Source: Stenotrophomonas sp. SAM-B (GTDB lineage Bacteria > Pseudomonadota > Gammaproteobacteria > Xanthomonadales > Xanthomonadaceae). From it: 64,000 nucleotides of DNA. The stretch is from positions 124,001 through 188,000 of the forward strand of contig NZ_JABBXB010000003.1 of assembly GCF_013387485.1 (NCBI RefSeq), given 5' to 3'. Positions 18,769 through 40,192 of this stretch are shown here, piece after piece. Within the stretch, counting starts at the first letter, position 1; each line of letters opens with the position of its first letter. The position numbers and the translations under genes were made by a program. Under the pieces are notes generated by a model. That model made no database searches. It was given only the letters and a program-made list of their open reading frames with translations, and was not told the DNA's origin.

Positions 18769-19545
18769 TCAGAGGTCGACGCGGCGGGCCTGCATGAACT
18801 TGCCGCCCCAGTAGCCGCTGACCAGGCTGTCGACGCGGACGTCCTTGCCGGTGCTCGGGGCATGCAGGAAGCGGCCTTCGCCGACATAGATGCCGACATG
18901 GTCGACCCGGCCCTTGCGGCCGAAGAACACCAGGTCGCCGGCCGCCAGCGCGTTGCGGTCATTGATCAGTTCGGCAGCGCCGTCATGGGCCATCTCGCGG
19001 GAAACGCGCGGCAGTTCGACGCCCAGCGCAGTCCGGAACACATAGCCGACCAGGCCACTGCAGTCGAAACCGCTGTCCGGCGAGGTGCCGCCCCAGCGGT
19101 ACGGCGTGCCGAGCAGGGTCATCGCACGGCGCAGCAGCGACTGGACCTTGCCGTTGTCGGCGGCGTCGCCGGCCACGGTAATGGCGCCGGTGCTGGCGTC
19201 GTAGTTGGCAAGCAGGCGGCTCAGGTCACCGGCGAACATCGCCGAGCGATCCATGAGCGGGATGGTGTCGTTGGCCGCCAGGTGCGGAAGCAGGGCGGCG
19301 AGGGTGGCGCTGGCAGCGGCATCAGCCTTGCTGCGGGCCGGCGCATCCGCCTTGGGCTTGGCCGGCGCGGAAGAATCGGGGGTGACAGTGACGGGGGGTG
19401 CAGCAACCTCGGGAGCGGTCGTCGGTGCGGACTGCGCCCAGGCCGGAAGGCTGGCCAGGCAGAGTGCTGCAGCGAGGAAAGCGGGGCGGGCGCGTCGCCG
19501 GGTGGCGGCGGTCTGGCCTTTGCACGTCAGGTCGTCTGTCGTCAC
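18769..19545 (-). CDS. NlpC/P60 (C40) peptidoglycan endopeptidase, periplasmic
   Basis: A 258-residue hydrolase. Signal peptide RPAFLAAALCLASLPAWAQ, a Pro/Ala/Lys-rich spacer, a helical region, and a C-terminal NlpC/P60 domain with catalytic Cys162 in GFDCSGLVGYVF, His in VDHVGIYVGEG and a second His in FLHAPSTG. Such enzymes cleave the gamma-D-glutamyl-diaminopimelate bond of peptidoglycan stems. The start is uncertain: GTG 19543-19545 is preferred because the longer open frame (TTG at 19608) begins inside an AT-rich promoter-like stretch. A second NlpC/P60 gene lies immediately upstream; their domains share long identical motifs (GTPYRWGG/GTPYRYGG, DLVFFG), which points to a tandem duplication. 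Confidence 0.88.
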   Translation of the reverse strand: MTTDDLTCKGQTAATRRRARPAFLAAALCLASLPAWAQSAPTTAPEVAAPPVTVTPDSSAPAKPKADAPARSKADAAASATLAALLPHLAANDTIPLMDRSAMFAGDLSRLLANYDASTGAITVAGDAADNGKVQSLLRRAMTLLGTPYRWGGTSPDSGFDCSGLVGYVFRTALGVELPRVSREMAHDGAAELINDRNALAAGDLVFFGRKGRVDHVGIYVGEGRFLHAPSTGKDVRVDSLVSGYWGGKFMQARRVDL

Positions 19546-19676
19546 GCGGCGGTCACTGAATAAAAACGATGGGTGATGATGCCGTGTAAGCGCAGTGATT
19601 AGGTACAAATTCCGTTAATTTTTCGTTTACAACTGCGTGATGTCGGTCACAAATTTGGACCTTACCCCTGTTCAGC

Positions 19677-20216
19677 TTAGTTAAGGACGCGTTTCGCTCC
19701 CGTGTAGTGGTCCTTCCAATAGGGCCCGCCGAGCGAGTCCAGCCGGACCGTGCCGCCGGTGCTGGGGGCGTGCACAAAGCGGCCTTCCCCGACATAGATG
19801 CCGACATGGAAGACGTTGCCCTTGTTGCCGAAAAACACCAGATCGCCGGGCGCCAAGCGCTTGGGATCGATCTTCGGCCCCTGCACGGCGGCCAGATCGC
19901 GCGAGGTGCGCGGCAGGCGCAGGTCGAGCATCTCGCGGTACACGTACGCGACCAGGCCGCTGCAGTCGAAACCGGATTCGGGAGTGTTGCCGCCGTAGCG
20001 GTAGGGCGTGCCGACCAGGCCGATCGCGCGCATCAGCACGGCGTTGGCGGCCTGCGGATCGTTCGGGGCCACGCTGGGCCAGACCTGGGTCGAGGCGGGC
20101 GGCGCGGCCGGGCGGGTGGTCTTGCCGCCGCCACAGGCGCTCAGCAGGGCGATGATCGCCAGCAGGGCCAGGTGGCCGGGCAGGCGGGTCAGGCGCGAAA
20201 CTGGCGTCATGTGCAT
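19677..20216 (-). CDS. NlpC/P60 (C40) endopeptidase, lipoprotein
   Basis: A 179-residue compact enzyme: lipoprotein signal with lipobox LLSAC (about residues 24-28), short Pro-rich spacer, then the NlpC/P60 domain with Cys85 in GFDCSGLVAYVY, His in NVFHVGIYVGEG and HAPSTGGTVRLDS near the end. An ATG two codons in (20210) is an equally good start. It is the smaller member of a tandem pair with the gene at 18769; the 131-bp gap between them is AT-rich and probably carries the other gene's promoter, so they may be separately regulated. Confidence 0.88.
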   Translation of the reverse strand: MHMTPVSRLTRLPGHLALLAIIALLSACGGGKTTRPAAPPASTQVWPSVAPNDPQAANAVLMRAIGLVGTPYRYGGNTPESGFDCSGLVAYVYREMLDLRLPRTSRDLAAVQGPKIDPKRLAPGDLVFFGNKGNVFHVGIYVGEGRFVHAPSTGGTVRLDSLGGPYWKDHYTGAKRVLN

Positions 20217-25134: not shown

Positions 25135-25224
25135 CGCTGCCTGGGCGTTGAACAGGGCGCGCTGGCGCGCAGCGTGCGGCCGGGTGCTGCGGCTATGATG
25201 GGCGCAGTTCCAAAGGATGCCCCC

Positions 25225-25899
25225 ATGTTTCCGCGACTGCCTACCGTCACCAAAGCGTTGTTGATCGCCAACGCCCTGCTGTTCCTGCTGCAGCAGCCGT
25301 TCCTGCTCGGCAATGCCACGTTCGAGCCCTTCATGCTGCAACCCCTGGGCGGTGGTTTCGATCCGTTCTCGCCCGGCGGCAACTTCCAGCCCTGGCAACT
25401 GCTCACCTATGGCTTCCTGCATGGCAGCTTCGGCCATCTGTTCTTCAACATGCTCGCGCTCTTCATGTTCGGTGCGCCGCTGGAACAGACCTGGGGCGAA
25501 AAGCGCTTCCTGACTTATTACCTGGTGTGCGTGGCCGGTGCCGGCCTGTGCCAGCTGCTGGTCGGCATGATGCTGGCCGACCCGGCCACGGTGCTGGGCG
25601 CTTCCGGTGGCGTGTTCGGCCTGTTGCTGGCCTACGGCATGCTGTTCCCCAACCAGCGGGTGATGCTGCTGTTCCCGCCGATCCCGATGAAGGCACGTAC
25701 CTTCGTGATCGTCTTCGGCGCGATGGAACTGATGCTGGGCGCCACCGGCTGGCAGCCGGGCGTGGCCCACTTCGCCCACCTGGGCGGCATGCTGTTCGGC
25801 TGGCTGTTGATCCGCTACTGGCGCGGCCAACCGCCGTTCAACAACCGGCGTCCACCGGGACCTCCGAAGCGCCCCAACCACCTGCGCAGCATCAAATAA
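25225..25899 (+). CDS. Rhomboid-family intramembrane serine protease
   Basis: A 224-residue membrane protease with six predicted helices. Catalytic Ser127 lies in LGASGGVFG, catalytic His185 in AHFAHLGGMLFG, and the oxyanion-side His71/Asn75 in HGSFGHLFFNM. The catalytic dyad is intact, so it should be active. ATG 25225 follows AAAGGA. The C-terminal tail is short, Pro/Arg-rich and cytoplasmic. The physiological substrates are unknown. Confidence 0.93.
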   Translation: MFPRLPTVTKALLIANALLFLLQQPFLLGNATFEPFMLQPLGGGFDPFSPGGNFQPWQLLTYGFLHGSFGHLFFNMLALFMFGAPLEQTWGEKRFLTYYLVCVAGAGLCQLLVGMMLADPATVLGASGGVFGLLLAYGMLFPNQRVMLLFPPIPMKARTFVIVFGAMELMLGATGWQPGVAHFAHLGGMLFGWLLIRYWRGQPPFNNRRPPGPPKRPNHLRSIK

Positions 25900-25991: not shown

Positions 25992-28004
25992 TCAGCGCCA
26001 GACCTTGATCTGGTCGTTGTCCACGCGCTGCATCGGCTGGCCCGGCTTGCAGGTGAAGGTCGCGCCGAAGGACGGCAGGTTGGACAGCGGGCCGTTGGTG
26101 CGCCAGCGGCCCGGGGCCAGGATGTCGGAGGTCACGCGCTGGGCGGCGACGTTCGGCGACAACTGCTGCGGCCACAGGCTGGCCCAGGCGCGGAAGAAGC
26201 CCTGCTGGGCGGCCGGCTTGGCAGCCGGTTCGACGGCCTTGTAAGCCTCCCACGCCAGTTCGAGGCCGGCCAGATCGGCCAGGTTCTCTTCGCGGGTGAG
26301 TTCGCCGTTGACCTTCGCACCCTTGACGCCCGGGTAGTCGTAGCCGCTGTACTGCGCGGCGACGCGGTTGCCGAACAGCGTCCAGGCGGTCTTGTCGGCC
26401 GGGGTCCACCAGCTGCGCAGTTCGCCCTTGGCATCGACCAGCGCGCCCTTGGCGTCGATCGCACGGGTCAGCTCGTGGGCGACCAGCGCGCCGTAGTTGC
26501 CGAACAGCTCGGCGGTATCGCCCTTGGCGTTGAACACCGGGCCCTGCAGCACGGCGGCGGTGACGATCAGGCGGTTCTGCGCGATGTCATACGCCAGCGC
26601 CGGCTGCTGCGGCAGCACGTCCCAGCGGCGGTCGGCGTTGCCCTTGCCGATGCGCTTCATTTCTTCGCGGTGGCGCCAGGTGGACGCGATCAGCATGTTG
26701 CCGCCGAAGCTGCCACGGCCCATCGGCTGCACGGTGTAATCCAGATCGCGCAGCGGAGTGCCGATCTCGATCTTCAGTGCGGCCAGCTTGGCCTGCGCTT
26801 CGGTCTTGGCTTCATCGCTCATCCAGGTGCTGCGCTTGACCGCGTCGATCTGCACTTCGCGGATCTTGTCCACGACCAGGGCGGCCTTGCGACGGTCGTC
26901 GGCGGACAGATGCTTGGCCGCGTACTCACGGCCGACCATCGGACCGGCAGCGACGTTGATCGCATCCAGCACCTGCTCCCAGCGCGCCGGCGGCAGGGTC
27001 TGGCCACGGATCACGCGGCCGCGGAATTCGAACTCGGCGTCGCGGTAGGCCTTGGACAGGTACGGTGCCATGGCGTCACCCACGCGCCAGCGCAGGTAGA
27101 CCTTCCACTGCTCCGGCTTGATCCGCGTGACCATGCCGTCGAGCTGCTTGAACAGCGCCGGATCGGCCAGCGAGACCAGGTCGTCGTTGACGCCCTGTGC
27201 CTTCAGGAAGGCCTCCAGCTGCAGGTTGCGATAGCGGCTGTTGAGCTCCTTGGTGGAGATCGGCGCGTAGTTGTTGAACGGGTTGTTGATGCCCGCCAGC
27301 GACTGCGCGTTGCGCGCCAGTTCGGTTTCCAGCGCGATCACCGACTGCGACTCGGCATCGAGCTTGTCGGCCGGGGTGCCGGTCAGGGCCAGCACCTGCT
27401 TGACGTAATTGCGGTAGCGCCCCATCAGCGCGACGGTGTCGGCATCGGTGCGGGTGTAGAACGCCGGATCCGGCAGGCCCATGCCACCCTGCATGAAGTA
27501 GCCGATGTGGCGGTCCAGCGCCTTCAGGTCCACGTCCGGCGCGAAGTTGAAGGCGACCGGGATACCGACCTGGTGCAGCGCGGCGATCGAGGCCGGCACG
27601 TCCTTGGCCTTCTTGATCGCGTTGATGCGGGTCAGCAGCGGGGCGATCGGGTTGGAGCCGTCGGCTTCCACCGCCGCTTCGTCCAGGCCGCTGGCCCAGA
27701 AGTCGCCGAGCAGCTTCTGCACGTTGCCCTGCGGTGCGGTCATCGCCGCATCCAGCAGTTCACGCTGCTGCTGGCGGGTGCGGTCGGCGAGCTGGCCCAG
27801 CGCGGTGGTGGCGCCGGTCTGCGGTACCGGGTTGGCCTTCAACCAGGTCGCATTGGTGGCCTCGTAGAAGTCGCTGCACTGCGCGCTGACGGCCGGCGCG
27901 CGGGCGGCGGCCTTCTTCTTCGGCGCGGCATGCGCATCGTGTGCGATGACCAGGGAGGCCAGGCTCAGGCCCAGGGCAATGGCGAGCGGACGGAGGTTGG
28001 ACAT
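25992..28004 (-). CDS. M13-family peptidase homologue with degenerate active site
   Basis: A 670-residue exported protein (signal peptide LAIALGLSLASLVIAHDAHA) homologous over its whole length to neprilysin-type M13 metallopeptidases, including the N-terminal CSDFYEATNATWLKANPVP and C-terminal TFTCKPGQPM. The zinc motif is broken: HExxH reads HELTR (His510, Glu511, Arg514), the substrate-binding NAYY motif reads ALAY, and the transition-state His (DPHAP in the neighbour) is missing (DILAP). The third zinc ligand motif ENLADLAG is intact. Predicted inactive as a protease. Start ATG 28002-28004 gives the signal peptide. It follows an intact M13 paralogue, so duplication followed by decay or change of function is likely. 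Confidence 0.9.
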   Translation of the reverse strand: MSNLRPLAIALGLSLASLVIAHDAHAAPKKKAAARAPAVSAQCSDFYEATNATWLKANPVPQTGATTALGQLADRTRQQQRELLDAAMTAPQGNVQKLLGDFWASGLDEAAVEADGSNPIAPLLTRINAIKKAKDVPASIAALHQVGIPVAFNFAPDVDLKALDRHIGYFMQGGMGLPDPAFYTRTDADTVALMGRYRNYVKQVLALTGTPADKLDAESQSVIALETELARNAQSLAGINNPFNNYAPISTKELNSRYRNLQLEAFLKAQGVNDDLVSLADPALFKQLDGMVTRIKPEQWKVYLRWRVGDAMAPYLSKAYRDAEFEFRGRVIRGQTLPPARWEQVLDAINVAAGPMVGREYAAKHLSADDRRKAALVVDKIREVQIDAVKRSTWMSDEAKTEAQAKLAALKIEIGTPLRDLDYTVQPMGRGSFGGNMLIASTWRHREEMKRIGKGNADRRWDVLPQQPALAYDIAQNRLIVTAAVLQGPVFNAKGDTAELFGNYGALVAHELTRAIDAKGALVDAKGELRSWWTPADKTAWTLFGNRVAAQYSGYDYPGVKGAKVNGELTREENLADLAGLELAWEAYKAVEPAAKPAAQQGFFRAWASLWPQQLSPNVAAQRVTSDILAPGRWRTNGPLSNLPSFGATFTCKPGQPMQRVDNDQIKVWR

Positions 28005-28148: not shown

Positions 28149-30260
28149 TTACCAGATCACGACCTGCTGGTCGCCTGCGCGCACCATCGGCGAGCCGGCC
28201 TTGCACTGGAACGCAGCGGCGAAGGTCGGCAGGTTCGACGGGGCACCCATCGCACGGAACTGCGCCGGGGCATGCGGGTCGGTCGCCAGACGGACCTTCA
28301 TGTTCTCCGGGGTGTACTTGGTGCGCCACACGGTGGCCCAGTTGAAGAAGAAGCGCTGGTCGCGGGTGAAGCCGTCGACCTTCGGGTCTTCCTTGCCGGC
28401 CGAGGCCTTCTGCAGGGCGTCGTAGGCGGTCGCCAGGCCGCCCAGATCGGCGATGTTCTCGCCCAGGGTCAGCTTGCCGTTGACCGGCTGGCCGTCCACC
28501 TTGTAACCGTCGAACTGCTTGATCAGCTTGCCGGTCAGGCCGCTGAAGTTCTTGGTGTCGGCGTCGGTCCACCAGTTCTCGAAGTTGCCGGTCGGCCCGA
28601 AACGGCTGCCCTGGTCGTCGTAACCGTGGGTCATCTCGTGGCCGATCACCGCACCGATGCCGCCGTAGTTCAGCGCGTCATCGGCCTTCGGATCGAAGAA
28701 CGGCGGCTGCAGGATGGCGGCCGGGAACACGATCTCGTTCTGCAGCGGGTTGTAGTAGGCATTCACCGTCTGCGGGGTCATGCCCCACTCGGTCTTGTCC
28801 ACCGGCTGGCCGATCTTGGACAGCGCGAACTTGTAGTTGAACGCATTGGCGGCACGGACGTTGCCCAGGTAGCTGTCGCGACCGGTGGTCAGGCCGCTCC
28901 AGTCACGCCACTTGTCCGGGTAGCCGATCTTCGGGGTGAAGGTTTCCCACTTGGCGATCGCCTTGGCCTTGGTCTCGTCGCTCATCCAGGTCAGGCCCTG
29001 GATGCGCTCCTTGAGCGCGGCGGCGAGGTTCTTGACCAGTTCTTCCATCTTCGCCTTGGCTTCCGGCGAGAAGGCGACCTTGACGTACAGCTGGCCGAAG
29101 GCATCGCCGGCATCGTTCTCGATGGTGCCCAGCACGCGCTTCCAGCGCGGCTTCTGCTCTTTCTGGCCGTTGAGGGTCTTGCCGTAGAAGTTGTAGCTCT
29201 CGTTGACGAACGCATCGGCCAGGTACGGCGAGGCGCCGTCCACGGTGTGGAAGCGCAGGTAGGCGCGCCACACCGACGGATCGGTATCACCCAGCGCCTT
29301 GCTCACTTCCTGGTGGAAGCTCGGCATGGCCAGCGAGAATTTCTCCGGCGTGGCGATGCCCTGGGCCTTGAAGAACTCGCTCCAGCTGAAGTTCGGGGTC
29401 AGCTTGTCCGCATCGGCCACGGTGACCGGGTTGTAGAACAGCGAGACATCGCGCGACAGCTCGACGCTGGACTTGGACGCCTTGGCCAGGCGGGTTTCGA
29501 ACTTGACCACGTCGGCAGCCTGCTTTTCAGCATCCGCGGTCGCCACGCCGGCCAGTTCCAGCACCTTGGCCACGTGGGCCTGGTAGGCCTTGAGCTTGTC
29601 GGCGTTCTTGGCGTCGGTGTAGTAGGTGGTGTCCGGCAGGCCCAGGCCGCCCTGGCTGGCATAGGCCAGGTTCATGCTGGAATTCTTGAAGTCCGCTTCC
29701 GGACCGAAGCCGAACAGCACGTTCTCGCCCTTGGCTGCGCTGGTGCGCAGGTAGTTGGCGATCGCGTCCTTGTCCTGCAGTCCGTCGATGGCGGCCAGGT
29801 CGGCCTTGATCGGCTCGATGCCCTGGGCGTTGATCTTGGCTTCGTCCATGCCGGTGGCCCAGAAGTCGCCGACGATCTTCTCGATGCCGGCCGGGTTCTT
29901 GACCGCCGCGACCTGTTCGGCAAGCTGGTGCTGCACGGCGACCGAGCGCTCGTCCAGGATCGTGAAGGCGCCCCAGCTGGTGCGGTCGGCCGGGATTTCA
30001 TTGGCGGCCAGCCACTTGCTGTTGACGTAGTCGCCGAAGGCGCCGCAGGCGTCCATCGCGGTGTCCAGGTCGGACGGATGGAAGGCGTTGTAGGCCGGCA
30101 GCTTGCTCTCGTCGAGCTTGTACTCGGTGACGGCCGTGGCGGCCGGCGCGGCGGTGGAGGCTGCGCTGTCCGTCGCCGGGGTTTCGTTCTTGCCGCAGCC
30201 GACCAGCGCGGCCGAAACGGCCAGGGTCAGCAGTACCAGTTTGGGTGTACGAGCGATCAC
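28149..30260 (-). CDS. M13-family zinc metallopeptidase, lipoprotein (PepO-like)
   Basis: A 703-residue enzyme with a lipoprotein signal (lipobox AALVGC). All M13 hallmarks are intact: substrate-binding NAYYN, zinc motif HEMTH (His541/His545) in GAVIGHEMTHGYDDQG, third ligand ENIADLGG, and the stabilising His in TDPHAPAQFRAMG. The N-terminal M13 domain begins near CGAFGDYVNSKWLAANEIP. Such enzymes cleave peptides below about 40 residues. It lies between its degenerate paralogue and two TonB-dependent receptors on the same strand, suggesting a role in processing peptides at the cell surface or in the periplasm, though no substrate is known. Confidence 0.93.
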   Translation of the reverse strand: MIARTPKLVLLTLAVSAALVGCGKNETPATDSAASTAAPAATAVTEYKLDESKLPAYNAFHPSDLDTAMDACGAFGDYVNSKWLAANEIPADRTSWGAFTILDERSVAVQHQLAEQVAAVKNPAGIEKIVGDFWATGMDEAKINAQGIEPIKADLAAIDGLQDKDAIANYLRTSAAKGENVLFGFGPEADFKNSSMNLAYASQGGLGLPDTTYYTDAKNADKLKAYQAHVAKVLELAGVATADAEKQAADVVKFETRLAKASKSSVELSRDVSLFYNPVTVADADKLTPNFSWSEFFKAQGIATPEKFSLAMPSFHQEVSKALGDTDPSVWRAYLRFHTVDGASPYLADAFVNESYNFYGKTLNGQKEQKPRWKRVLGTIENDAGDAFGQLYVKVAFSPEAKAKMEELVKNLAAALKERIQGLTWMSDETKAKAIAKWETFTPKIGYPDKWRDWSGLTTGRDSYLGNVRAANAFNYKFALSKIGQPVDKTEWGMTPQTVNAYYNPLQNEIVFPAAILQPPFFDPKADDALNYGGIGAVIGHEMTHGYDDQGSRFGPTGNFENWWTDADTKNFSGLTGKLIKQFDGYKVDGQPVNGKLTLGENIADLGGLATAYDALQKASAGKEDPKVDGFTRDQRFFFNWATVWRTKYTPENMKVRLATDPHAPAQFRAMGAPSNLPTFAAAFQCKAGSPMVRAGDQQVVIW

Positions 30261-30477: not shown

Positions 30478-33291
30478 TTAGTTGGTCTTGGTGCCGAAAT
30501 CGTACTTGGCCTGCACGTACACCGCGCGACCGTACGGGTTGTAGATGCTGCTGTTGTACGGCGAGGCGACGTTGCCGGCGTAGCTGTGGGCCTGGCCGTC
30601 GGGCATCTTGTTGAACACGTTGTTGACCATCAGCGAGAGGGTCAGGTTGTCCAGCGCCCGGTAGTTCACGCTCAGGTTGTACGTGGTGTACGAGCCCCAC
30701 TTGCCCGCCTTGTAGCCGGACGAATGCACGTAGTCGTAGCTCTCGCCCAGGTAGGACATGTAGTTCGGCGTCTTGCCGATGTAGTTGAAGTACAGCGTGG
30801 TGGTCCAGCGGTCCTTGGCCCAGCCCACCGAGCCATCGGTACGGACCTTGGCGTAGGCGTCGTAGTACCACATCGCATACGGGTCGCGCAGCAGATCCAG
30901 GTAGCCGTCGCCCGGCTGCGGCTGCAGCTCGCGCTTGAGGATGTTGGTGTAGTTGCTGGCGAACTGCAGCGAGCCGAAGCGGCCGATGTCCTGCACGTAC
31001 TTGAAGCTGGCCGTGAGGGCCTGCAGGTTCTGGCGCGCCACGTTGAGTTTCGGCGTGAAGATCTGCTCGATGTTGCCGGCCGCATCGCGGGTGATCCAGT
31101 CGGCGACGTTGTCGCAGCTGGCCGAGGTCGGGTTGTCCTGCCCGTTGCGGCAGTAGTACTCCGCGCGCAGCAGCTGATCCGAGCTCAGGGTGTCGACTTC
31201 GTTGTCGATCTTCCAGTTGTAGTAGTCCACCGAGACCGACAGGTTGTTGATCGGTGCCCAGACCACGCCGGCATTCCAGACATCGGCGGTGATCGGTTCC
31301 AGCTCCGTGTTGCCGGCCTGCACGCCGAACACCGACTCGTTGCCGTACGGGCAGGCGAGGGTATCGGCCGGCGCATAGCCGAGCTGGCCGCAACGGTAGT
31401 AATCGACCGCGCCGTTGGCGTAGTAACCGCTCTCGCCCTGGAAAGCGTCGGGCAGGGTGGGGGCACGGAAGGCGGTGCCGTACTTGCCGCGGAACAGCAG
31501 GCTTTCGATCGGGCGGAACTCGACACCCACGCTGTAGGTGGCCTTGTCGACGGTGTTGTCGGCGATCTTGTAGGCGTCATAACGGCCGGAACCGGTGACG
31601 GTCAGCGAATCGATCAGCGGCAGGCGCAGTTCGGAGGTCAGCGCGTAGTTGCTGCGATGGCCATTGCCGGCCACCGAGGTGGTGCCCCACACGCTGCCGT
31701 CCATCAGGCGCTCGTCCGGGCGGTAATCCCAGCCTTCGCTGCCGGCTTCGGCGACGACGGCAAAACCGGCATCGCCACCGGGCAGGGTGAACAGTGAGCC
31801 GTTGGTGATCTGGAAGCGGCCCAGGTTCTGCCAGGTCTTGCTCTCGTTGTAGGTGTAGCCGGTGAAGCTCTGGAAATCGCCGGCCGGCAGCTGCGAATAG
31901 AACGCGCCCCAGTTCGGGCTGTAGATGTTGTAGCCGTCATCGGTGGTGCCGAGCACCGGACCGAGCACGCGGTTCTCGAAGTAGCTGTCGATGTCATCGG
32001 CCCAGCGCACGAAGCCGCGCTCGGTCAGCTTGTATTCGCCACGGCTGAAGCTGGCGCTGTAGTCCCAGTTGCCGAACGTGCCACGCCCGCCCAGGGTGAC
32101 CTGGTAGGCCTTGTTGCGGTCGGTGTTGAGGATGTCCTTGTAGCCGTTCGGCCCGATGTCCTCCGGCGCGAACGCGCGCTGCAGGTTCATGTACTGATCG
32201 GTGTCCTGGTCATAGAACGCGCCGAAACTCAGGTCGCTGCCCCAGAACGTATAGCCCGAACCCGGGGTGTACTTGACCTCTTCCAGGCTGTACAGCGCAT
32301 CGGCGAACAGGGTGAAGTTGTCGTTCACATCGAACGTCATCGAGCTGTAGAACTGGCTGCTTTCCTTGTCGTTCTTCAGCGTGCGGTAGCCCGCGCCGTA
32401 GGCCGAACCGCACGACTCGCCCGCCGCGCGGGTGCCGAGCACGGTGGTACCGCCGAACTGGCCGGCGACGCTGGCGCAGCGGGTCGGATCCATCATCACG
32501 AAGGCGTTGTTGTCCGCCGGCAGGTAGACCAGGAAGTCATTGGCCGGCACCTGCGCGCTGTAACCGACGCGGTTGTTGGTGCGGGTCAGGTCGCGCTGGT
32601 AGCCCCAGATCGGGTTGCTCTTTTCGTACTGGACGTTGACCAGCGCATTGAAGCGGTCATCGGCGCTGTTGAAGCCCTTGGCGCCGCTGACGCGGATGTT
32701 GTTGCCACCGCCCTCGGTGGTGGCGCCGCCACGGACGTTGAGCACACCGCCTTCCATGCGCTCTTTCAGGATGATGTTGACCACGCCGGCGATCGCATCC
32801 GAACCGTACAGCGAAGACTGGCCGCCCGGCAGGATTTCGATGCGCTCGACGATGTCGATCGGGATGCCGCTGAGGTTGTTGAACGCATCGCTGCCGTTGT
32901 AGAGCGCCGGGTACTGCAGCATCGGGCGCCCATTGATCAGGTACTTGGTGTACCCCGGATCCAGGCCGAACATGCCGGCCGCTTCGGCGCCCTGGGTGAA
33001 GGAGGCCGCGGTCTGGCCGCCCTGCAGGCCGCCGGTGGTCAGCGAGGACTGCTGCAGGACTTCGGAAATGCTGGTGAAGCCGCGGGTCTGGATGTCCTCG
33101 GCGGTGACGGTCAGCACCGGCGTGTGGTTCTCGATCTCGGTCTGCGGGATCAGCGAACCGGTGACGGTGACGCGGTCGAGATTGGTGGCGCCGTTGTCCT
33201 GTGCGAAGACGGTAGCGCTGGTGAGCAGCAGGCCGGTGAGGACGGCGGCGGCAAGCGGGTGACGCGAGATCGAATTACCTTGGCGAGACAT
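30478..33291 (-). CDS. TonB-dependent outer-membrane receptor (paralogue 1)
   Basis: A 937-residue receptor. Signal peptide AAAVLTGLLLTSATVFAQ, then a TonB-box-like DRVTVTGSLIPQ, a plug domain with INGRPMLQYPAL and IEILPGGQSSLYGSDAIAGV, and a long beta-barrel ending YVQAKYDFGTKTN. The last residue is not aromatic because a short tail follows the terminal Phe. It is closely related to the next receptor upstream; many plug and barrel segments are identical (FRGKYGTAFRAPTLPDAFQG versus FRGKYGTAFRAPSLSDAFQG). Ligand unknown; neighbouring peptidases make peptides a reasonable guess. Start ATG 33289-33291 gives the signal peptide. A conserved 22-bp motif lies 137 bp upstream. Confidence 0.92.
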   Translation of the reverse strand: MSRQGNSISRHPLAAAVLTGLLLTSATVFAQDNGATNLDRVTVTGSLIPQTEIENHTPVLTVTAEDIQTRGFTSISEVLQQSSLTTGGLQGGQTAASFTQGAEAAGMFGLDPGYTKYLINGRPMLQYPALYNGSDAFNNLSGIPIDIVERIEILPGGQSSLYGSDAIAGVVNIILKERMEGGVLNVRGGATTEGGGNNIRVSGAKGFNSADDRFNALVNVQYEKSNPIWGYQRDLTRTNNRVGYSAQVPANDFLVYLPADNNAFVMMDPTRCASVAGQFGGTTVLGTRAAGESCGSAYGAGYRTLKNDKESSQFYSSMTFDVNDNFTLFADALYSLEEVKYTPGSGYTFWGSDLSFGAFYDQDTDQYMNLQRAFAPEDIGPNGYKDILNTDRNKAYQVTLGGRGTFGNWDYSASFSRGEYKLTERGFVRWADDIDSYFENRVLGPVLGTTDDGYNIYSPNWGAFYSQLPAGDFQSFTGYTYNESKTWQNLGRFQITNGSLFTLPGGDAGFAVVAEAGSEGWDYRPDERLMDGSVWGTTSVAGNGHRSNYALTSELRLPLIDSLTVTGSGRYDAYKIADNTVDKATYSVGVEFRPIESLLFRGKYGTAFRAPTLPDAFQGESGYYANGAVDYYRCGQLGYAPADTLACPYGNESVFGVQAGNTELEPITADVWNAGVVWAPINNLSVSVDYYNWKIDNEVDTLSSDQLLRAEYYCRNGQDNPTSASCDNVADWITRDAAGNIEQIFTPKLNVARQNLQALTASFKYVQDIGRFGSLQFASNYTNILKRELQPQPGDGYLDLLRDPYAMWYYDAYAKVRTDGSVGWAKDRWTTTLYFNYIGKTPNYMSYLGESYDYVHSSGYKAGKWGSYTTYNLSVNYRALDNLTLSLMVNNVFNKMPDGQAHSYAGNVASPYNSSIYNPYGRAVYVQAKYDFGTKTN

Positions 33292-33427
33292 GTGTAACCC
33301 CGTGTAGTGGTGATGTCGTGGCTTTCCCTTCCGTGGGACGTCTTGATGGCGTTCAACGGTGACCGGTCCCAGGCCTGTGACCATCCTTGGGTGTTTCATT
33401 CTGCGTTCAGTTGAAACCGGTGTGCGG

Positions 33428-33449
33428 CGAACGTAACACACGCTTAACG
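33428..33449 (-). promoter_or_regulatory. Conserved TonB-receptor upstream motif, copy 1
   Basis: On the minus strand CGTTAA-GCGTGT-GTTACGTTCG. The GTTA elements recur 11 bp apart. Near-identical copies stand upstream of the two other receptor genes (36589-36610 and 39929-39950). Confidence 0.6.
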
Positions 33450-33694: not shown

Positions 33695-36502
33695 TTACTT
33701 CGCGCCGAATTCGTACTTGGCCTGCACATACACGGCACGGCCGTAGATGTTGTAGAAGTAATTGTTGTACGGCGTACCCGAGGTGCCCGGGTAGTTGCTC
33801 GCCTGGTTGTCGGGCATCTTGTTGAACACGTTGTTGACCATGACCGAGAAGGTCATGTTCTCCGCCGCGCGGTAGTTCACGCTCAGGTTGTAGGTGGTGT
33901 AGGAACCCCACTTGCCGGCCTTGGCGCCCGAGGAGTGCACGTAGTCATAGCCGTTGCCGGCGTAGGCCAGGTAGTTCGGGGTCTTGCCGACGTAGTTGAA
34001 GTACAGCGTGGTGGTCCACTTGTCCAGGGCCCAGGCCAGCGAGCCATCGGCGCGCACCTTGGCGTAGGAATCGTAGATCCACATGTTGTACGGATCGCGC
34101 AGCAGATCGAGGTACTCATCGCCCGGCTGCGGCTGCAGCTCGCGCTTGATCATGTTGGTGTAGTTGGTGGAGAACTGCAGCGCACCGAAACGACCCAGTT
34201 CCTGCACGTACTTGGCACTGGCGGTGATGGCCTGCAGGTTCTGGCTGGCCACGTTCATCTTCGGGGTGTAGATCTCGTCCAGCACGCCGGAGGCATCGCG
34301 GGTGATCCAGTCGTTGACGTTGTCGCAGCTGGCCGAGGTGTTGTTGACCTGGCCGTTGCGGCAGTAGTACTCGGCCAGCAGCAGCTGGTCCGAGCTCAGC
34401 GTGTCCACTTCGTTCTTGATCTTCCAGTTGTAGTAGTCGACCGAGAAGGACAGGTTGCTGAGCGGTGCCCAGACCACGCCCGCGTTCCACACATCGGCGG
34501 TGATCGGCTCCAGGTCCGGGTTGCCGGCGCGCTGGCCGAACACCGAGACGCTGTCGTGGGCGCAGCCGGTGGTATCGGTCGGGGCGTAGCCCAGCTGGCC
34601 GCAGCGGTAGTAGTCGGTGGCACCGTTGGCGTAGTAGCCGCTCAGGCCCTGGAAGGCATCGGACAGGCTGGGCGCGCGGAACGCGGTGCCGTACTTGCCG
34701 CGGAACAGCAGGCTCTCGATCGGGCGGAACTCGACGCCGATGCTGTAGGTGGCCTTGTCGACGGTGCTGTCCCCGATCTTGAACGCGTCATAGCGGCCCG
34801 AGCCGGTGACGGTGAGCGAGTCGAGCAGCGGCAGGCGCAGCTCGGAGGTCAACGCGTAGTTGCTGCGGTGACCCGCGCCGGCGACCGCGGTCGTGCCCCA
34901 CACGCTGCCATCCATCAGGCGCTCGTCCGGGGTGTAGTCCCAGCCTTCGCTGCCGGCTTCGGCGACGACGGCGAAACCGGCATCACCGCCCGGCAGCGAG
35001 AACAGCGTGCCGTTGGTGATCTGGAAACGCCCCAGGTTCTGCCAGGTGCGGCTCTGGCTCTCGGTGTAACCGGTGAAGGTGGCGAAGTCGCCGGCCGGGA
35101 TCGGCGCGTAGAAGGCCTCCCAGTTCGGTGCGAACACGGCGTAACCGCTGCGGGTGCCGAGCTGCGGGCCCAGCACGTGTTCTTCGAAGTAGTTGTTGAT
35201 GGGGTCGGCCCAGCGCACGAAGTTGCGCTCGGTCAGCTTGTACTCGCCGCGGGTGAAGCTGGCGCTGTAATCCCAGTTGCCGAGCGTGCCGCGGCCGCCC
35301 AGGGTAACCTGGTAGGCCTTGTTGCGGTCGGTGTTGAGGATGTCCTTGTAGCCGTTGGCGCTGATGTCTTCCGGCGCGAACGCGCGCTGCAGGTTCATCC
35401 ACTGGCCACTTGTCTGATCCCAGAAGCGGCCGTAGCCCGACGCGGTGCCCCACCAGGTGTAGTTGGAACCGGTGGCGTACTTCACGTCTTCATAGCTGTA
35501 GAGCACATCGCCGAACAGCTGCAGGCTGTCGTTGGCGTCGAAGGTGAACGAGCTGTAGACCTGCGCGCTGTCCTTGCCGTTCTTGACGGTCTTGTAGCCC
35601 GGGCTGTAGATCGAGCCGCAGGACTGGCCGGCCGCACGCGTGCCGAGCACGGTGGTGCCACCGAACTGCCCGGCAACGTTGGCGCACAGGTTCGGGTCCA
35701 TCATCAGGTAGGCGTTGCCGGCCGCCGGATTGACGACCAGGAAATCGTTGGTCGGCACCTGCGCGGTGTAGCCGTTGCCGTTGGTGGTCCTGGTGACGTC
35801 GCGCTGGTAGCCCCAGATCGGATTGCTCGATTCGAACTGGGCATTGACCAGCACGTTGAGCCGGTCATCGGCGCTGTTGAAGCCGGTGGCCCCGCTGACG
35901 CGGAAGGTGCTGCCACCGCCTTCGGTGTAGGTGCCGCCGCGCACGTTCAGCACGCTGCCGTCCATCCGCTCCTTCAGGATGATGTTGACCACGCCGGCGA
36001 TCGCATCCGAGCCGTACAGGGAGGACTGGCCGCCCGGCAGGATTTCGATGCGTTCGACGATGTCGATCGGGATGCCGCTGATGTTGTTGAACGTGTCGCC
36101 GCCGTTGTACAGGGCGGGGTAGGACAGCATCGGGCGGCCGTTGATGAGGTACTTGGTGTAGCTCGGGCTCAGGCCGAACATGCCGGCCGCTTCGGCACCC
36201 TGGGTGAACGAGGCGGAGGTCTGGCCGCCCTGCAGGCCGCCGGTGGTCAGCGAGGACTGCTGGAGCACATCGGCCACGCTGGTGAAGCCGCGCGTCTGGA
36301 TGTCTTCGGCGGTGATGGTCACGACCGGGGTATGGGTTTCGATCTCGGTCTGCGGGATCAGCGAACCGGTGACGGTGACCTTGTCCAGGTTGGTGGTGCT
36401 GCTGTCCTGGGCGAAGGCGGTGACGGCGCTGGTCAGCAGCATGCCGGTCAGTACGGCGGCGGTCAGCGGGTGGCGCGAGAGAGTGGAGCGGTGGCGAGAC
36501 AT
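33695..36502 (-). CDS. TonB-dependent outer-membrane receptor (paralogue 2)
   Basis: A 935-residue receptor with signal peptide (TAAVLTGMLLTSAVTAFAQ), plug (DKVTVTGSLIPQTEIETHTP; INGRPMLSYPAL; IEILPGGQSSLYGSDAIAGV) and a barrel ending RAVYVQAKYEFGAK. It is a tandem paralogue of the receptor at 30478, nearly the same length and with identical stretches throughout; differences cluster in extracellular-loop-like segments, which would fit two receptors for related ligands. Start ATG 36500-36502. Conserved 22-bp motif 87 bp upstream of the start. No TonB/ExbBD genes are in the window. Confidence 0.92.
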   Translation of the reverse strand: MSRHRSTLSRHPLTAAVLTGMLLTSAVTAFAQDSSTTNLDKVTVTGSLIPQTEIETHTPVVTITAEDIQTRGFTSVADVLQQSSLTTGGLQGGQTSASFTQGAEAAGMFGLSPSYTKYLINGRPMLSYPALYNGGDTFNNISGIPIDIVERIEILPGGQSSLYGSDAIAGVVNIILKERMDGSVLNVRGGTYTEGGGSTFRVSGATGFNSADDRLNVLVNAQFESSNPIWGYQRDVTRTTNGNGYTAQVPTNDFLVVNPAAGNAYLMMDPNLCANVAGQFGGTTVLGTRAAGQSCGSIYSPGYKTVKNGKDSAQVYSSFTFDANDSLQLFGDVLYSYEDVKYATGSNYTWWGTASGYGRFWDQTSGQWMNLQRAFAPEDISANGYKDILNTDRNKAYQVTLGGRGTLGNWDYSASFTRGEYKLTERNFVRWADPINNYFEEHVLGPQLGTRSGYAVFAPNWEAFYAPIPAGDFATFTGYTESQSRTWQNLGRFQITNGTLFSLPGGDAGFAVVAEAGSEGWDYTPDERLMDGSVWGTTAVAGAGHRSNYALTSELRLPLLDSLTVTGSGRYDAFKIGDSTVDKATYSIGVEFRPIESLLFRGKYGTAFRAPSLSDAFQGLSGYYANGATDYYRCGQLGYAPTDTTGCAHDSVSVFGQRAGNPDLEPITADVWNAGVVWAPLSNLSFSVDYYNWKIKNEVDTLSSDQLLLAEYYCRNGQVNNTSASCDNVNDWITRDASGVLDEIYTPKMNVASQNLQAITASAKYVQELGRFGALQFSTNYTNMIKRELQPQPGDEYLDLLRDPYNMWIYDSYAKVRADGSLAWALDKWTTTLYFNYVGKTPNYLAYAGNGYDYVHSSGAKAGKWGSYTTYNLSVNYRAAENMTFSVMVNNVFNKMPDNQASNYPGTSGTPYNNYFYNIYGRAVYVQAKYEFGAK

Positions 36503-36588
36503 GGGCATCCCCGAGTGCAGTTTCGACGTGGGTGAGGCCATCCGTGGGGGCGGTGACATGCGATGTGAAGACTTCCTTGCTTCTTCAT

Positions 36589-36864: not shown

Positions 36865-39849
<2,985 letters not shown>

Positions 39850-40192
39850 ATCATTTCGTCCCTCGGAACGGCCGAAAGACGACAACGTTCCGTGTTGAGT
39901 GTGGGTTCAGGCAAGCCTTGCCTGATTTCGAAATTAACATGAAGTTAACGGCACTTGTCTCATTTGTTACAGAAAAGTGAATGGGCGCCAACGACTTTTG
40001 CGTTCAGGATTTTTTCCAGTGTGCCCAACGACTTACGTTGATTTTGCCGAGTCTGTCAGTATGACTATTGGCTGAATGGGGGTTGTTTTTCACTGTTTGC
40101 CGCGTGAAACGCGTCCCAGTCCAGCGTCAGGCAGGAGCGGGGGCGTGCTTGTATCATGTGCGGTCCCCTTCCTGATCCAGCTGGAGTCCGCA
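39850..40192. promoter_or_regulatory. Divergent promoter region between TonB receptor 3 and mrp (343 bp)
   Basis: Carries the third receptor motif at 39929-39950, a direct repeat CCAACGACTT at 39988-39997 and 40025-40034, and a TATCAT box at 40152-40157 that could be the -10 of mrp. No gene seen. Confidence 0.5.
39929..39950 (-). promoter_or_regulatory. Conserved TonB-receptor upstream motif, copy 3
   Basis: On the minus strand CGTTAA-CTTCAT-GTTAATTTCG. It keeps the CGTTAA, GTTA and TTCG elements and the exact spacing of copies 1 and 2 although the receptor belongs to another subfamily. Confidence 0.55.

Follow-up and report, generated by a model that had tools for sequence, protein, structure and literature searches.

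Inactive proteins of the M13 (neprilysin/PepO-type) family have been described for invertebrates and for Kell (PMC2259306). The Drosophila protein Nepl15 retains the M13 fold with two zinc ligands replaced by arginine, possesses no counterpart of His711 or Asn542 and carries counterparts of Arg717 and Asp650 (neprilysin residue numbering, here and below, follows PMC2259306 and PMC7822871). It is secreted rather than anchored, and a model in which it sequesters peptides has been proposed (PMC7822871). Gone early is the only M13 protein named in the excerpted text of a 2024 review of inactive metallopeptidases (PMC11266112). Both insect proteins have mutant phenotypes; they are animal proteins, presumably of an origin separate from that of the bacterial family. 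In rat Kell, likewise an M13 member, the water-activating Glu584 and the zinc ligand Glu646 are substituted (PMC2259306), so that this vertebrate protein has lost other residues than the bacterial one. Active and inactive homologues encoded by adjacent genes are known from another peptidase family, namely the bacterial M16B pairs SPH2681/SPH2682 and TTHA1264/TTHA1265, which are proven heterodimers (PMC12731061, PMC11266112). Among the matches listed for the open-licence literature, we found no bacterial M13 pseudopeptidase.

The window, i.e. the whole stretch of 64,000 nucleotides from Stenotrophomonas sp. SAM-B that was analysed, carries on its reverse strand an open reading frame of 670 codons with its ATG at 28004 and its stop at 25992 (25992..28004; the motifs and the neighbouring M13 gene given below lie on the same strand). 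The product matches Pfam Peptidase_M13_N (E 1.3e-85; 288.6 bits versus a cut-off of 32) and Peptidase_M13 (E 2.2e-39; 135.7 bits versus a cut-off of 24.5) and is an M13 homologue by descent and fold. The first-pass annotation had read a loss of three catalytic motifs in this protein, without naming its strand, and motif alignment and Pfam agree with it. The N-A-aromatic-aromatic strand that binds the substrate, NAYY, has become ALAY (26600-26589). HELTR (CAC GAG CTG ACC CGT, 26477-26463) stands in place of HExxH, with Arg514 replacing the second zinc histidine; its CGT codon is indeed one change away from the histidine codon CAT, though the intact paralogue next to it uses CAC at this position. 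DILAP (26126-26112), part of DILAPGRWR (26100..26126), carries leucine instead of the transition-state histidine His711 and keeps the Arg717 equivalent. ENLAD (26288-26274), which was correctly listed as preserved, matches the ENxxD motif and retains both the glutamate that is the third zinc ligand and the Asp650 equivalent. The reading frame is open as had been stated, and the N-terminus looks like a signal peptide without lipobox (approximately residues 1-26, 27927..28004; predicted by eye and family comparison). Immediately upstream lies the intact M13 paralogue of 703 amino acids (30260..28149; assigned by open reading frame, Pfam and motifs), which possesses a lipobox (LVGC) and the motifs NAYY, HEMTH, ENIAD and DPHAP, and a terminator-like hairpin of 14 pairs followed by a T run (28118-28088) separates both genes. 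The genome harbors four M13 genes (E <= 0.001), and the other three (P0003, L003 and L004) are intact at nine scored positions.

An AlphaFold2 model built with 56 window and locus sequences, paralogues included, reached a pLDDT of 89.3 and a pTM of 0.86 and replaced an earlier, poor model (38 orthologues of 67-100% identity, paralogues absent; pLDDT 62.2). Its comparison to thirteen M13 entries yielded Z scores of 37.1-42.5, with TfPepO (9eyg) as the best match (Z 42.5, rmsd 4.3, 628 residues aligned) and human neprilysin (1dmt) at Z 39.0. The predicted fold is that of an intact, neprilysin-like M13 protein, and it is shared over the whole mature length with the active bacterial enzymes TfPepO, PgPepO (9fma and 9kn2) and Zmp1 (3zuk), from which the protein differs by a sequence identity of only about 25% and by the missing HExxH, NAYY-type strand and His711. 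Based on the Pfam matches, the orthologue motifs and the predicted fold, we assign the gene to an M13 pseudopeptidase, in which catalytic residues are lost, the loss is fixed in orthologues and purifying selection acts on the gene. Annotating 28004..25992 as a peptidase would probably mislead.

An alignment of orthologues had been proposed to ascertain whether HELTR is fixed, and HExxH is present in none of 110 orthologue rows, which stem from Stenotrophomonas, Xanthomonas and Pseudoxanthomonas and, in a few cases, from MAGs or mislabelled records (111 rows were best-matched to the 670-aa protein, one fragment was excluded and some genomes occur twice). The second zinc histidine is arginine in 105 of these rows and glycine in the remaining 5. 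Eight rows have also lost the first zinc histidine (AREITR, GNQLTR, GTQLSR etc.), and in those of the GNQLTR/GTQLSR type the glutamate is gone as well. The closest records, from S. rhizophila and S. bentonitica, are 98.5% and 98.1% identical on the amino acid level (L034 and L035). Since the loss is fixed across genera, we rejected a sequencing error or a strain-specific mutation; the motif loss predates Stenotrophomonas and Xanthomonas. The gene is present in all 61 genomes of the genus that were searched (its own included, drawn from a larger group), one of which carries an internal stop (G020; L251), and the copy of another (G015) spans residues 151-670 only. Family-wide, 154 of 198 Xanthomonadaceae genomes and 39 of 54 sampled genera carry an orthologue (E <= 1e-150), all listed rows having open frames, and the other 44 genomes gave no match at this threshold. 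On the order level, 18 of 121 genomes match at E <= 1e-120, one of them from outside the family (G303), and on the class level the matches at E <= 1e-115 (3 of 185 genomes) are all within Xanthomonadaceae, with none beyond the family. The orthologue in G303 (L254) is 57% identical, and as this genome is 77% complete and assigned to another family, contamination and transfer are both possible. No close plasmid-borne relatives were found, every one of the 136 matching plasmid records being below 60% identity. A record titled Bacillus subtilis (L040) contains a 91% identical Stenotrophomonas-type locus, and its assembly is probably contaminated or mislabelled.

We scored the catalytic site across the family in 224 distinct orthologues, which remained from 252 rows once a fragment (L002) and L251, split into two halves, had been dropped (249 rows covering all motifs) and identical ones collapsed. 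The Asn542-Ala543 pair is changed in every one of them, and Asp650 and Arg717 are kept in every one. His583 is retained in 191, Glu584 in 208, His587 in 78, Glu646 in 161 and His711 in 85 orthologues. A full zinc triad remains in 45, and 39 of these are intact at all scored positions except Asn542-Ala543, so that, judged by these residues, some relatives could retain weak activity. Among the active paralogues, 237 of 238 distinct rows keep Asn542, His583, Glu584, His587, Glu646 and His711, the single exception having changed Asn542. A tree of 141 rows (those at least 93% alike removed, motif columns excluded) places one change of Asn542-Ala543 at its stem, and requires 10 losses of His583, 5 of Glu584, 7 of His587, 21 of Glu646 and 24 of His711 if loss is irreversible or, in the same order, 10, 5, 6, 19 and 20 by plain parsimony, counts that are estimates because several inner branches are weakly supported. 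With eight more divergent rows added, the resulting 149 rows form one clade (SH-aLRT 100; 99-100 across trees) that is sister to the active paralogues, and a complete catalytic set is found in none of them.

The three-motif loss thus stands as fixed in near genera, but has to be corrected in that the losses go far back and happened in steps, and that some orthologues from more distant genera of the family still possess HExxH. All of the latter are without Asn542, except L272 (G092), which has a gap at the Asn542 column, keeps HExxH and has lost His711. Two further rows bear on the first step: L259 (G099) keeps NAYY and has lost His587 and Glu646, and by its sequence may represent an early stage of loss, its placement in the tree having a support of 0, and L256 keeps Asn542. 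Hence, the view that loss of NAYY was the sole first step is weakened. L270 (G082) is more degenerate than these three. L259, L270 and L272 are divergent M13 homologues, partly or fully inactive by sequence, from genera that have no close orthologue. A series ranging from loss of only Asn-Ala to near-total loss coexists under purifying selection in the 39 of 54 sampled genera with the gene, and offers a natural series for asking in which order an enzyme changes into a pseudoenzyme and what stays.

Selection was assessed by dN/dS (Nei-Gojobori) for 44 of 80 named loci from which both M13 genes could be extracted. In 22 non-overlapping pairs, the pseudopeptidase gave values of 0.021-0.390 (median ~0.08) and the active neighbour values of 0.008-0.410 (median ~0.10); over all 946 pairs the median is 0.274 for both genes, which we take as inflated because dS saturates. 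These ratios, far below 1 and similar to those of the active neighbour, and a frame that is open in 60 of 61 genus genomes bear out the earlier claim of a decay without frame loss under selection: the gene encodes an old pseudopeptidase and is maintained by purifying selection. As its cutting site was lost long ago and the gene is still selected, it probably has another job. Overall conservation is lower than in the active paralogue (0.71 versus 0.82), and the pseudopeptidase retains on average 55% of 170 near-invariant sites of the latter. By comparison, the stretch 430-449, which precedes the former NAYY strand by about 20 residues, is better conserved (0.93 versus 0.81), as are parts of residues 90-149, and the conservation profile delimits a family-specific block of residues 426-482 that begins ahead of the former substrate strand and spans it (26559..26729). 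A neutral decay towards a pseudogene, to which the internal stop in G020 and the 44 of 198 family genomes with the gene below threshold might be attributed, is barely conceivable and was discarded, since the low ratios resemble those of the active paralogue, the other genus frames and all listed family rows are open and the losses are fixed across genera. The protein might also have retained or gained catalysis, i.e. weak metal-dependent hydrolysis or other chemistry via His510, Glu511 and Glu573. For this speaks that the first histidine, the glutamate and the third-ligand glutamate are kept in the lineage of the window, that 189 of the 224 orthologues have both His583 and Glu584, and that some have the full zinc triad. 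Yet the 670-aa protein has lost the second histidine, His711 and the Asn542 strand, and related lineages lost His583, Glu584 and Glu646 repeatedly, in no pattern that would point to a common requirement, which renders a catalytic role improbable.

Alternatively, the pseudopeptidase might serve the active M13 lipoproteins, above all the 28149 product, as a non-catalytic subunit or as a regulator that binds them and aids substrate capture, stability or control, a proposal in part already made by the first-pass annotation (regulation of the intact paralogue) and one for which bacterial M16B pairs provide a precedent (PMC12731061, PMC8960859). An active-type M13 gene on the same strand lies immediately upstream in 220 of 250 partly redundant rows, and 8 of the 30 misses have less than 1.5 kb of upstream DNA. 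Both genes occur in 152 genomes, the active one alone in 36, the pseudopeptidase alone in 2 and neither in 8 (lists compared by eye, at the thresholds applied to each gene); of the 154 genomes bearing the pseudopeptidase, only G129, with its copy near a contig end, and G221 have no strong counterpart of the 28149 paralogue. The conserved family-specific stretches 90-149 and 430-449 could form an interface. The M16B pairs, however, are proven dimers, and the M13 pair is known from genes with a terminator between them: terminator-like hairpins are found in the window and in 58 of 185 distinct intergenic gaps, none of which is shorter than 30 nt. There are also the 36 genomes in which the active paralogue does without the pseudopeptidase, and for many Xanthomonas loci the active M13 protein closest by is one of a second type, about 50% identical to P0003. 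A convergent, putatively rhomboid-like gene at 25174-25899 adjoins the pseudopeptidase in 77 of 80 named loci. In 40 loci from 36 other genera this neighbour is as faithful as the active M13 gene (35/40 versus 37/40), so that the M13 linkage may be plain synteny. Given this equally conserved neighbour and the terminator, we dropped conserved adjacency as proof of a partnership. Of the regulatory claim, co-occurrence and tandem arrangement stand, and the terminator and the generally conserved neighbourhood weaken it; these gene data allow for the active neighbour as a partner, though on balance we doubt it. Nematode H-gal-GP (6row, Z 35.2), considered as a case of an assembled M13 subunit, was set aside, as the excerpted description presents an MEP3 dimer and mentions no heterodimer (PMC7173941). 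In Xanthomonas loci such as L099, L104, L085 and L095, the active M13 gene of the second type, with a GHEATHGFD-like motif, adjoins the pseudopeptidase, and L099 has a P0003-like gene further upstream of it. The first-pass annotation had also suggested peptide binding for the adjacent TonB receptors. Work with these receptors in peptide import is very unlikely: apart from the adjacency in the window, the three receptors of the window are matched in 37 of 80 named loci, often weakly, and they have no match in the other 43 (10 of the 80 having short upstream flanks) or in any of the 40 loci from the 36 other genera (flanks of ~4 kb).

The reading that we prefer, at a probability of roughly 0.4, is that of a soluble periplasmic M13 pseudopeptidase that would be unable to hydrolyse peptides and would still use the M13 cavity to bind them. 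It would act as a periplasmic decoy, buffer or presenter of peptides alongside membrane-anchored active M13 enzymes, resembling the role proposed for inactive Drosophila Nepl15. A lipobox-like motif before the first conserved cysteine, scored by a permissive pattern, is found in 107 of 111 active paralogues versus 12 of 141 pseudopeptidases, a contrast suggesting that the active enzyme is probably anchored in the membrane and the pseudopeptidase probably soluble in the periplasm. Because the genes look separately transcribed and the proteins differ in anchoring, we slightly favour the peptide binder over a partner subunit. Positions equivalent to what we assume to be the neprilysin S1' pocket are hydrophobic in 93-100% of the 141 rows. 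Among 92 hydrophobic control sites, 84% retain hydrophobicity at >= 0.95; the pocket does not stand out from these controls, and its conservation is compatible with peptide binding rather than proof of it. Arg717, Asp650 and Trp693 contact or frame the substrate in neprilysin. The Trp693 equivalent is present in 141 of 141 rows and those of Asp650 and Arg717 are invariant too, but the three residues may be structural. Asn542, which binds substrate, is the residue most uniformly lost, which argues for an altered or abolished canonical binding of peptides. Our best guess is that the protein is probably a peptide-binding or regulatory one, e.g. holding peptides or steering active sister enzymes. 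For the history of this protein family, which most of the Xanthomonadaceae possess, we give even odds to a scenario in which it arose by duplication of an active lipoprotein M13, became soluble, had its substrate strand remodelled at an early stage and afterwards lost its zinc-binding and catalytic residues bit by bit, on dozens of occasions, with residues ~426-482 kept for a dedicated peptide-binding or regulatory job.

Two of the TonB-receptor genes in the window (30478-33441 and 33695-36559) are closely alike and arranged in tandem, and a third receptor gene follows at 36865-39885. One receptor of L034 is 98% identical to one of the tandem receptors and 77% to the other. A further pair of neighbouring genes on the reverse strand (18769-19608 and 19677-20216) presumably encodes proteins that, by their motifs, resemble secreted NlpC/P60-type cell-wall peptidases.
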